Shown here: in pieces, positions 12,946-16,428 of the stretch
Numbering within the stretch: the stretch's first letter is position 1
Layout of the letters: every line of letters begins with the position of its first letter
Source of the DNA: Rhodopirellula sp.
Lineage (GTDB): Bacteria > Planctomycetota > Planctomycetia > Pirellulales > Pirellulaceae
Length of the DNA: 42,243 bases
Direction: 5' to 3'
Assembly: GCA_002701385.1 (NCBI GenBank)
Contig: NZVD01000060.1
Span: forward strand, 1-42,243
Notes under the pieces: model-generated
Told to the model about the DNA's origin: nothing
Databases searched by the model: none
What the model saw: only the letters and a program-made list of their open reading frames with translations
Program-made: the position numbers and the translations under genes

Positions 12946-13812
12946 ATGGCATCCATTCCGGATAATTCTGAAAAGATGATTAGCTCGACTCTGCCTAGGC
13001 AGGAATCGATGCTTTCGGTGCTATGGACCAAAATAGATCAGGCCACCTATGTGGTCGGTGACCTAAGCCTATTTGTGATACGGATATTCTCCTGGATGTT
13101 CAGCCGCCGTCTCTGCCGAGGGACGCTCATTAAATCCGCCTATCAGATCGGCGTCCTGAGCGTTCCCGTAGTTGGCCTGACAGGTATGTTTATTGGTATG
13201 GTCTTGGCAGTACAGAGTTTCTTCCAATTCAGTCAGATCGGCATGGAAAGCCGTATGGGAGCTGTGATCAACTTGACGCTGGTACGAGAGCTAGGTCCTG
13301 TGCTGGCCGCTACCATGTTGGCCGGCCGAGTTGGAAGTTCTATGGCCGCAGAATTGGGAACGATGCGAGTCACCGAACAAATCGATGCCTTAAAAAGTAT
13401 GGGAGTCAATCCAATACACTTCCTGGTCGTTCCACGTGTCTTGGCCGCTTTACTATTGATTCCCGTGCTCACTCTGATGGCAGACTTTATGGGGATTCTG
13501 GGAGGGTTTGCGTATAGCCACTACCTACTGCAAATTGATCCTCATCAATACTTCGAATTCTCCAGCCAGTACGTAACCGGTTATGACTTGTTAACTGGGA
13601 TTATCAAAAGCTTGTTTTTTGGAGCTTGCATCGGCATCGTCAGCTGCTATTTCGGGTTTCATAGTCAGGCCGGAGCACAGGGCGTTGGTAATGCAGCCAC
13701 CGCAGCTTTCGTTACTAGCTTTGTACTAATTCTGGCATTGGACCTAATGATCGGCATTAGCTTGGATAAAATCTACTTCCACTTCAATCCGGCGGGAGCG
13801 TCATTGTTTTGA
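12946..13812 (+). CDS. mlaE: MlaE-type ABC lipid transport permease
   Basis: The 288-residue integral membrane protein belongs to the MlaE/YrbE permease family. Family-typical segments are GMFIGMVLAVQSFFQF (about residues 80-95), the conserved LVRELGPVLAATMLAGRVGSS (about 108-128) with its coupling-helix region ELGTMRVTEQIDALKSMGVNP, and a C-terminal helix near ALDLMIG. It forms the membrane core of an Mla-like system that moves phospholipids between inner and outer membrane. The N-terminal 40 residues are an extra polar segment. It is translationally coupled to the downstream ATPase gene, which begins inside its stop codon. It sits 129 nt after clpC, with no terminator seen between them. Confidence 0.93.
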   Translation: MASIPDNSEKMISSTLPRQESMLSVLWTKIDQATYVVGDLSLFVIRIFSWMFSRRLCRGTLIKSAYQIGVLSVPVVGLTGMFIGMVLAVQSFFQFSQIGMESRMGAVINLTLVRELGPVLAATMLAGRVGSSMAAELGTMRVTEQIDALKSMGVNPIHFLVVPRVLAALLLIPVLTLMADFMGILGGFAYSHYLLQIDPHQYFEFSSQYVTGYDLLTGIIKSLFFGACIGIVSCYFGFHSQAGAQGVGNAATAAFVTSFVLILALDLMIGISLDKIYFHFNPAGASLF

Positions 13813-14666
13813 ATCCATCTGCCACCTCATCTGCCGAAACGTCATCCCAACAGTTTTCACCTTATCTAGTGGAAACCCATGCGTTGAATATTCAGTTTGG
13901 AGCCCAGAAAGTCATTCGCGACGTCACCTTGCAAATTCGGCATGGCCAAACGGTCGCGATCATCGGAGAAAGCGGTTGTGGGAAAACCGTCCTACTGAAA
14001 TCGTTAGTTGGGTTACTCCAACCCACATCGGGTTTTGTCTTGTTTGACCAACAGGATCTGGGAGCCTTACGTGAAAAGGAGATAGCACAACTTAGAACGC
14101 GGACCGGTTTTGTCTTCCAGCAAGCCGCTCTGTTCGATAGCCTCACGGTCGGAGAAAACATCGCCTTCCCAGTCATACACACAGCTTCTCATCGTCAAAC
14201 CGCCTTCCCCGTTGAGGAGGAAAGACAGCAACTTGTATTACACGCGTTAAGAGAAGTCGGACTCTCAGATTCCACGATGCATCAGTACCCTGCCGACCTA
14301 TCTGGAGGTATGAGAAAACGGGTCGGTTTAGCCCGTGCCCTCATCCTTCAACCAGAACTCATGCTTTATGACGAACCAACTACAGGCTTAGATCCGATCG
14401 TCAGCGACATTATCAATGAGTTGATTATGCGCAGTCGACTCAAGCATCGTGTAACTAGTATTTTGGTCACGCATGACATGAAGACTGCCAGAAAAGTTGC
14501 CGACCGTGTGCTCATGCTCCATCCACTTGAACGCCTGTCTCCAACCGAATCTCAAGTTATTTTCGATGGTCCACCGAGTGAACTGGAGCATTGCCCGGAC
14601 ACTCGCGTTCAACAATTCATTCAAGGAGAAGCAGGCAATCGAATGCATGAACTTAACCTCCTTTAA
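13809..14666 (+). CDS. mlaF: MlaF-type ABC transporter ATPase
   Basis: The 285-residue ATPase starts with TTG at 13809, sharing 4 nt (TTGA) with the mlaE stop. It has the full ABC set: Walker A GESGCGKT at about residues 56-63, Q-loop VFQQ at about 101-104, ABC signature LSGGMRKRVGLARAL at about 163-177, Walker B ELMLYDEPTTGLDP at about 182-195, and the H-loop His in LVTHDM. The phrase GMRKRVGLARA is the form seen in MlaF/Mkl ATPases rather than in importers. It powers the MlaE permease. The C-terminal 40 residues follow the core as in MlaF proteins. The end lies 31 nt before the start I chose for mlaD. Confidence 0.93.
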   Translation: MNPSATSSAETSSQQFSPYLVETHALNIQFGAQKVIRDVTLQIRHGQTVAIIGESGCGKTVLLKSLVGLLQPTSGFVLFDQQDLGALREKEIAQLRTRTGFVFQQAALFDSLTVGENIAFPVIHTASHRQTAFPVEEERQQLVLHALREVGLSDSTMHQYPADLSGGMRKRVGLARALILQPELMLYDEPTTGLDPIVSDIINELIMRSRLKHRVTSILVTHDMKTARKVADRVLMLHPLERLSPTESQVIFDGPPSELEHCPDTRVQQFIQGEAGNRMHELNLL

Positions 14667-14697: not shown

Positions 14698-15897
14698 ATG
14701 AATGATCGCACGTTAAAAACCCGACTCGGCAGTGTTATCGTACTGGCCGGCGTGATCGCTGTCTCATTGCTGATCATGTTTGAAGCCTTTCCAAATCTCC
14801 GAGCCAATGGTTATGAAATCATGATTCAATTTCCAACGGCCCCCGGAGTACGTGAAAGTACGACGGTGAGAAAAAGCGGTATTGAAATTGGGCGTGTCAC
14901 TGATGTGGAACTCAAATCAGACGGGGGCGTGGTCCTTACGATCGCCGTTGACGATGAAGTGATAATCCGTAATCACGAATCCTGTCGTATTAAGATGGGC
15001 TCCTTGCTCACTGGAGCTGCCATTCTGGAGTTTACTCCCAAACCACTGGAATTTCTCTTCGCGGAATTCGATGCCAATCAGGATGGAGTACTGGATGACG
15101 AAGAACTCGCCCAAAGCCAGGCTCCGGTGACTCCTGGTTCACTAATCAGCAATGGATTGGTTGTCGATGATCCTCTGACATTATTGGTCAATATGCAGCA
15201 AAACATGTCCGAGACTTTTAATTCTATTCAGGGTGCCGGTGGCGGGGTCACGGAAGCGTCTGTTGAATTTAAGACTTTGTTAGAAAACATCAATCGAACC
15301 TTTGCGGACAACGAAGCTGATTTGAAGCAGGCAGTTCAACAGACCAATATTGCCATGCAACGATTTGAAAAGGCCATGGACTCGCTTGATACGATCGTGG
15401 GCGATGAGGAAACCCAAATCAAGTTGAAAGCCTCGGTAAATGAGATTCCCAAAGTACTCCGTCAGGCCACCTTAACGCTGGCTTCGGCCCAACAGACGAT
15501 GCAGTATTTCGAAAAAGTCGGCGAAAAAGCAGAAACCAATTTAAATAACCTCGAAAAGTTCACTCGGCCTCTCGGTGAACGCGGAGAGATGTTGGTCGAA
15601 TCAATCACCTCCAGTGTTGAAAACTTCGACAGTACGGTTTCAGAGATGAACGAGTTGGTAACGACATTGAATAACGCCGAAGGCAGCTTACATAAAATCG
15701 TTCATGATGATGAACTCTATTACAGTCTCAAAAGAACGACTACAAATATTGAGGAAGCGACGAAAAGGATGCGGCCGATCTTAAATGACCTGAGAGTGTT
15801 CTCGGATAAAATCGCTACCGATCCTCGACAATTAGGAGTCAGTGGGATGTTAGATCGGAGGCCGGTGGGTGTCGGTGTCAAATCACCGTTGTGGTAA
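14698..15897 (+). CDS. mlaD: MlaD/MCE-family substrate-binding protein with an EF-hand loop
   Basis: The product (399 aa from the ATG at 14698) has one N-terminal membrane helix (about 10-28) and an MCE domain at about 38-115, with EIMIQFPTAPGVRESTTVRK and the typical GIEIGRVTDVEL strand. A long helical tail follows, rich in Gln, Asn and Glu, like the tunnel-forming tails of MCE proteins. Right after the MCE core a canonical EF-hand loop, DANQDGVLDDEE, occupies 125-136, which is not a standard part of MlaD. An alternative start at 14647 would overlap mlaF and add 17 residues; I preferred 14698 because MNDRTLKTRLG fits family N-termini. The protein anchors in the inner membrane and carries lipid in the periplasm. 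Its 3' end overlaps the convergent PEGA gene by 15 nt. Confidence 0.88.
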   Translation: MNDRTLKTRLGSVIVLAGVIAVSLLIMFEAFPNLRANGYEIMIQFPTAPGVRESTTVRKSGIEIGRVTDVELKSDGGVVLTIAVDDEVIIRNHESCRIKMGSLLTGAAILEFTPKPLEFLFAEFDANQDGVLDDEELAQSQAPVTPGSLISNGLVVDDPLTLLVNMQQNMSETFNSIQGAGGGVTEASVEFKTLLENINRTFADNEADLKQAVQQTNIAMQRFEKAMDSLDTIVGDEETQIKLKASVNEIPKVLRQATLTLASAQQTMQYFEKVGEKAETNLNNLEKFTRPLGERGEMLVESITSSVENFDSTVSEMNELVTTLNNAEGSLHKIVHDDELYYSLKRTTTNIEEATKRMRPILNDLRVFSDKIATDPRQLGVSGMLDRRPVGVGVKSPLW

Positions 15898-16428
15898 TCG
15901 TCTCACCGGCTGCGCCGGCAGTCGACGCCCATTGAGATTAGCTGCAGGATTTGCGGGGACAGCCGGGTAATTTTGTCGCAGGGAACGAGGCTGAACGCCG
16001 GTAGGTGCCACGACCCCTTGTCTGGCTCGTTGTTTTAATTCCAATCCACGCTGAATTAATTCATTGGTGGTGCGAATCTTGAGAGGAACAAGTTTAAATT
16101 GGATGAGCCGTTCATCTCGGAATTCACGTCGAATCAGGTTTTCCGTTACAAAATCAATGCCTGGGATCTGATACCACGGTGGCTTGATCTCGCGTAATAC
16201 CGTTACTGTTTCATACCCGTCTTTGACAATCTGTATTTTCCGTGTCCCATAATAGGTAAACGATGTCGACACAGGGGTCACGCCGATTTCCTGATCATCG
16301 ATATAGACGAGAGCGCCTGGAGGATCTGTTTTTATGGTAATTCGCCGTCGAACAGCAGCATCCGTGGTGTCATAGAGCAACACCAACATCGAACTAGCAA
16401 TCATGACTGATAAGATACTGCGTAACAT
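15883..16428 (-). CDS. PEGA-domain exported protein
   Basis: This 181-residue protein has an N-terminal signal-like helix (about residues 3-24, ending TTDAA). Next comes one PEGA domain at about 27-72, visible as RRITIKTDPPGALVYIDDQEIGVTPV and then TRKIQIVKDGYETV. PEGA domains are small beta-sandwiches found in surface and periplasmic proteins of Planctomycetota and other phyla. The remainder is a charged segment and a Pro/Arg/Asn-rich C-terminal tail (about 135-181). A role in envelope structure or anchoring is an inference. The gene is convergent with mlaD, overlapping it by 15 nt, and divergent from the PP2C gene. A palindrome at 16465-16477 lies 37 nt upstream. Confidence 0.8.
   Translation of the reverse strand: MLRSILSVMIASSMLVLLYDTTDAAVRRRITIKTDPPGALVYIDDQEIGVTPVSTSFTYYGTRKIQIVKDGYETVTVLREIKPPWYQIPGIDFVTENLIRREFRDERLIQFKLVPLKIRTTNELIQRGLELKQRARQGVVAPTGVQPRSLRQNYPAVPANPAANLNGRRLPAQPVRRLPQR

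Follow-up and report, generated by a model that had tools for sequence, protein, structure and literature searches.

Does an MCE protein of a planctomycete lipid transporter carry a genuine calcium-binding motif and, if so, what would such an element do there? The question is raised by a gene of Rhodopirellula sp. located in a window of 42,243 nucleotides (the whole stretch of DNA that was analysed), whose product was said in a preliminary description to hold a canonical 12-residue EF-hand loop directly after its MCE core.

The mlaD-like gene and its relatives

The mlaD-like gene (14698..15897, + strand) encodes an MCE protein of 399 amino acids with an EF-hand insert; its open reading frame, which ends at 15897, can be read from ATG 14698, while the listed TTG at 14497 falls within the upstream ATPase gene. 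The product matches the Pfam family MlaD (PF02470) over residues 37-114 with 46.7 bits (cut-off 25.1) and is the sole match to this family (E <= 0.001) in the whole genome (4.9 Mb, 99% complete), which rules out a second MCE copy. The adjoining genes encode an MlaE-type permease and an ATPase by Pfam: a mlaE-like permease (12946..13812, + strand; MlaE, 259.8 bits) and a mlaF-like ABC ATPase (13809..14666, + strand; ABC_tran, 127.4 bits; TTG start as listed) precede the mlaD-like gene, which therefore appears to complete an mlaE-mlaF-mlaD group as its third member. On the opposite strand, a gene for a PEGA-domain protein (15883-16428, - strand) and the mlaD gene overlap at their ends; of 81 loci compared, 38 have relatives of the PEGA gene near mlaD, both with and without the EF-hand.

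The protein shares with MlaD of E. coli and P. aeruginosa (MlaFEDB) the MCE fold, the N-terminal helix, the mlaE and mlaF neighbours and a presumed pore loop with hydrophobic residues, but differs from it in the EF-hand between beta6 and beta7 and in about 240 more residues past the domain. Unlike the Mla systems of these two bacteria, the planctomycete genome gave zero matches to MlaC (PF05494) and MlaA (PF04333), the components that mark a six-component Mla system, in a profile search at E <= 1 that very divergent relatives could escape. The protein also resembles MlaD of Veillonella parvula, for which the available portion of the source describes a three-gene MlaEFD system, about 400 amino acids and an MCE domain continued by a long helical region (PMC10665443); unlike in this trans-envelope protein, no C-terminal beta-barrel is predicted, the AlphaFold2 model having no strands past residue 155 (the tail, residues 374-399, is of low confidence). 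A survey included in the same portion of that source reports MlaD of planctomycetes and their relatives to be without the beta-barrel and holds that three-component MlaEFD may serve most diderms; the term "EF-hand" is absent from its main text (PMC10665443).

An insert between beta6 and beta7 of the MCE domain

In the AlphaFold2 model an N-terminal helix (residues 3-28; 14704..14781, + strand), which would serve as membrane anchor, precedes strands beta1-beta6 of the MCE domain (residues 37-114 by Pfam, model strands 38-114; 14806..15039, + strand). The latter part includes SLLTG (residues 102-106), the likely pore-lining loop by analogy with Leu106/Leu107 of MlaD as given in excerpts of PMC7790496. 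Strand beta6 (residues 108-114) is followed by the EF-hand insert (15046..15117, + strand), which is delimited by Pfam, AlphaFold2, PDB matches and superposition and is predicted to comprise a helix (residues 117-124), the EF-hand loop and a second helix (residues 134-140). Next come the beta7 region (residues 149-157; 15142..15168, + strand), which belongs to the MCE domain and has strand residues 149-150 and 154-155, and a long helical region modelled with low confidence (residues 159-374; 15172..15819, + strand).

Superposition of the MCE part of the model on the core of E. coli MlaD (5uw8_B; Z 14.4, rmsd 1.9 A, 96 aligned residues) points to an MCE barrel fold. It runs over model residues 36-155 and chain residues 37-139, model residue 155 corresponding to chain residue 139, and the extra residues therefore lie within the MCE domain. 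Thus the EF-hand does not follow the MCE core, as had been described, but occupies the beta6-beta7 loop; the Pfam match stops at beta6. The block-mean pLDDT is 84-88 over residues 111-150 and 68 over residues 151-160, in a whole-chain model that is weak (mean pLDDT 66, pTM 0.37) chiefly owing to the helical region. A relative with a longer loop (L084) is likewise predicted as a helix-loop-helix (pLDDT 92-95), so that the setting on which the EF-hand claim depended is predicted in both proteins. The lists returned by fold searches were filled by the MCE domain, and missing EF-hand rows there carry no meaning. The top Foldseek matches were Mce1 proteins of M. smegmatis (8fed_F and 8fed_B), in which a long helical region also comes after the MCE domain; full-length superposition on them is loose (rmsd > 50 A). 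Mce1 is a hetero-hexamer, and to our knowledge no EF-hand is known in its proteins. The planctomycete protein, modelled as single chains, presumably forms a hexameric ring.

The loop itself, DANQDGVLDDEE (15070..15105, + strand), spans residues 125-136. The EF-hand consensus is a 12-residue loop with ligands at positions 1, 3, 5, 9 and 12, Gly at position 6 and a hydrophobic residue at position 8, all of which are present in DANQDGVLDDEE. A strict EF-hand loop arose in 15 of 20,000 shuffled copies of the protein, and in 119 homologues all 14 occurrences of the strict motif fall in the beta6-beta7 loop, with none elsewhere in 47,293 amino acids; a chance motif is ruled out by these counts, and the canonical loop of the preliminary description is borne out. 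In the whole protein the Pfam models EF-hand_5 and EF-hand_1 match within residues 118-138 (E about 1e-3) under their cut-offs; for EF-hand_5 the score is 22.0 bits on a 71-residue slice and 19.2 bits on the whole protein against a curated threshold of 25.9, and in a genome-wide scan the site ranks fifth among 34 matches at E <= 1, again under the family cut-off. Comparison of a 46-residue slice (residues 106-151) with PDB sequences retrieved KChIP2 (1.7e-5, the best), SCaMC-1 (3e-5) and many further calcium-binding proteins among the best 60 of 172 distinct sequences at E <= 10, and a profile from 27 slices reached a best E of 7.5e-5; at E <= 0.1, 12 of these 27 slices are matched by EF-hand_1 and 10 by EF-hand_5. 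Classical EF-hands come in pairs; in this chain one stretch alone matches the Pfam EF-hand models, and a second, paired EF-hand was not found by them. Judged by its sequence and predicted fold, the stretch looks like a real EF-hand with putative Ca2+ binding.

A single EF-hand-like loop, DTNQDGLITQQE, is also present in another gene of the window, that of an M50 (site-2 type) protease (410-1552, - strand), near 935-991; by eye it is placed between hydrophobic segments, and its EF-hand_5 score (18.8 bits) is under the cut-off.

Conservation and distribution of the insert

Homologues were found in 59 of 60 genomes searched, the source genome included; together with 80 loci of named records and after removal of 20 duplicates they form a set of 119 rows. 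The 12-residue EF loop is present in 16 of them, a degenerate form in 3 and a version of 15-17 residues in 10, and the loop recurs in several genera; the other 90 have no EF-hand. The insert therefore characterises part of one family and not MCE proteins in general, and it is dispensable for the transporter. Among the 19 short loops, residues competent as ligands occur at positions 1, 3, 5, 9 and 12 in 19, 18, 17, 19 and 17 cases, respectively, Gly at position 6 in 17 and Leu or Ile at position 8 in all 19; 14 are strictly canonical and the other 5 are not. In these loops the known ligand positions separate conserved from variable sites best among all 252 choices of five positions out of ten, and the ligand plus structural positions best among 792 choices of seven out of twelve. 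Identity over residues 117-140 averages 52% across seven congeneric proteins; dN/dS was dropped as a test of selection, synonymous sites being saturated. Thus, the Asp/Asn/Asp/Glu pattern noted earlier is kept wherever the 12-residue insert is present, but not in the homologues at large.

These data bear on the proposal that the stretch is an acidic spacer or an EF-hand relic that binds no metal and is kept as a negatively charged docking loop. Loops of the non-EF type are acidic too (median net charge -3, versus -6 for the 12-residue and -5 for the long EF types), some relatives have loops that look eroded, and the long loops depart from the consensus; however, charge alone fails to explain why the coordinating positions of the 12-residue type are conserved while their neighbours vary, and the proposal is considered improbable.

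In many MlaD proteins of the family, among them L016, L020, L023, L026, L044, L084, L097, L114, L135, and L136, the 12-residue loop is replaced by a recurrent EF-hand-like loop of 15-17 residues (DG..GSP.DG.LD..E type); ligand positions are changed in some of the family's long loops, whose Ca2+ competence is putative. In L081, L086, L087, L090, and L101 the beta6-beta7 insert takes a further form, which has a conserved LDGQAPVGQ...WDPPE stretch but no EF-hand consensus. Long inserts rich in proline and alanine are found in the same loop in L033, L055, and L133, which indicates that it tolerates very different inserts.

A scan of Pirellulaceae with a profile of the insert scored at least 69 bits in 75 of 241 genomes (source included), the next score being 44.6. 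The loops of 73 carriers were read: 20 are short and 44 long by pattern, and 9 fall outside the patterns; by eye, 3 of the 9 are loops of 12 residues that lack Gly6, which is replaced, and 6 are long loops in which another sequence replaces the second Asp-Gly; the remaining two carriers have a short (G031) and a long (G013) loop. In the class, 19 of 397 genomes were retrieved at E <= 1e-9, all of them Pirellulaceae (17 with at least 69 bits, 2 with 44.6), and among 392 genomes of the phylum the source genome alone scores in this range. Because both scans relied on a profile built from Pirellulaceae inserts, with no more than 15 candidates scored in any genome, they could miss an independently acquired insert in another group. 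In the phylum scan, hits outside Pirellulaceae start no earlier than profile position 16, mostly at 20-27, so that they take in the EF-hand part but not the pore loop; they are taken as ordinary EF-hand proteins. Outside the family, no comparable score was obtained in these class and phylum genomes.

The trait is patchy across the tree. Its presence and absence require at least 5 changes (shuffled mean 26, none of 500 shuffles as low) on a tree whose root was not inferred and whose starred branches force 2 changes. One supported group of 35 rows contains 33 without the EF-hand, including Rubripirellula and Stieleria titles, R. baltica and most Rhodopirellula titles, together with the long-loop rows L016 and L026, a pattern that reads as loss of the EF-hand; L069, titled Rhodopirellula sp., carries it. 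Named isolates without the EF-hand include Rhodopirellula baltica, Rubripirellula obstinata, Stieleria sedimenti, Stieleria tagensis, and Blastopirellula marina. Seven single-contig genomes have it (G013, G035, G065, G125, G202, G205, and G206), and therefore cultured carriers may exist; all seven have the long loop (ligand positions are changed in G202).

Possible roles of the insert in lipid transport

In E. coli the beta6-beta7 loop of MlaD is required for MlaC docking and transport (PMC11289387, PMC10245069), touches the MlaC cleft (PMC10245069), and has charged residues and no density in the crystal structure (PMC8420772). According to the available parts of these sources, binding to MlaC is no longer detectable with F118A and about tenfold weaker with L123A (PMC10245069), and lipid transport is lowered by F118K, E119K, and D120K, but not by E122K (PMC11289387). 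Regulation of docking, which the preliminary description put forward as a possibility alongside hexamer contacts, gains support because the insert occupies this very loop, although no MlaC was found in the source genome. By analogy with E. coli, its position suggests that calcium, if bound at the putative site, shapes the docking of the transporter.

The preferred reading, to which a probability of about one in two is assigned, is that of a calcium-stiffened docking arm on the MCE ring, for which we infer Ca2+ occupancy, the hexamer, the docking role and the partner. The MlaD-like protein would be the MCE subunit of a three-gene MlaEFD lipid transporter, and the single EF-hand in each beta6-beta7 loop would provide six helix-loop-helix arms at the periphery of the presumed hexameric ring. 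On binding periplasmic Ca2+ the arms would fold and stiffen and offer a docking surface for a partner passing lipid to or from the ring. They would thereby replace the acidic, flexible loop by which E. coli MlaD holds MlaC.

Candidate partners were sought among the genes next to mlaD by comparing the open reading frames of 81 loci, with flanks of up to 3 kb; a neighbouring partner gene is ruled out among the 25 largest clusters, none of which is private to EF-hand carriers. PEGA genes accompany 16 of the 25 EF-hand carriers and 22 of the 56 loci without it; for PP2C genes the counts are 16 and 16, respectively. Shared ancestry can produce such a skew.

Among envelope enzymes, the closest precedent found for such an inserted EF-hand is that of family 3 lytic transglycosylases (Slt35, SltB1-3): as described in excerpts of PMC12547810, the EF-hand is likewise inserted in another fold, the loop of SltB2 has 17 residues, similar to the 15-17-residue loops of Pirellulaceae MlaD, and SltB1 binds PBP2 in a Ca2+-dependent manner. 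The host fold and enzyme function are unrelated, however, and the extra loop residues may differ in position. A 1999 paper on Slt35 reportedly names a role in stability in its title, which would be in line with a Ca2+ site that docks nothing and only stabilises the local MCE fold or a hexamer contact; that no partner emerged from the MlaC and MlaA search of the genome or from the 25 largest neighbour-gene clusters also fits this explanation, which is nevertheless regarded as somewhat unlikely. EF-hands often work as switches, and the location of the arm in the docking loop, together with the SltB1 precedent, could favour a switch in which the arm responds to changes in external Ca2+ and thereby raises or lowers lipid transport. 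Judging from the N-terminal helix, though, the site would face the periplasm, and seawater contains about 10 mM Ca2+; if the organism is marine, the site would probably be occupied at all times, which would favour a structural role over a switch, and the switch is considered very doubtful.

A more specific form of the docking arm, in which the EF-hand of part of the Pirellulaceae forms a Ca2+-gated arm on their only MCE ring and recruits a planctomycete-specific lipid carrier or an outer-membrane partner replacing MlaC, is quite unlikely; if true, it would tie outer-membrane lipid transport to external calcium.

Both the MCE fold and the EF-hand motif are known, but no report of their combination at beta6-beta7, or of any calcium or EF-hand link to an MCE transporter, was found among the matches listed in a search of the open-access literature. 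A 2017 survey of 17,282 MCE proteins, in its available text, annotated other domains with Pfam cut-offs (PMC5561183); the insert is easily missed in this way because its scores fall under them. For the question of how lipids are passed to and from an MCE ring where MlaC is missing, a conserved insert with a predicted fold, placed in the known docking loop, offers a concrete starting point in the search for partners in planctomycetes, and a Ca2+-binding insert would link calcium to an MCE transporter.
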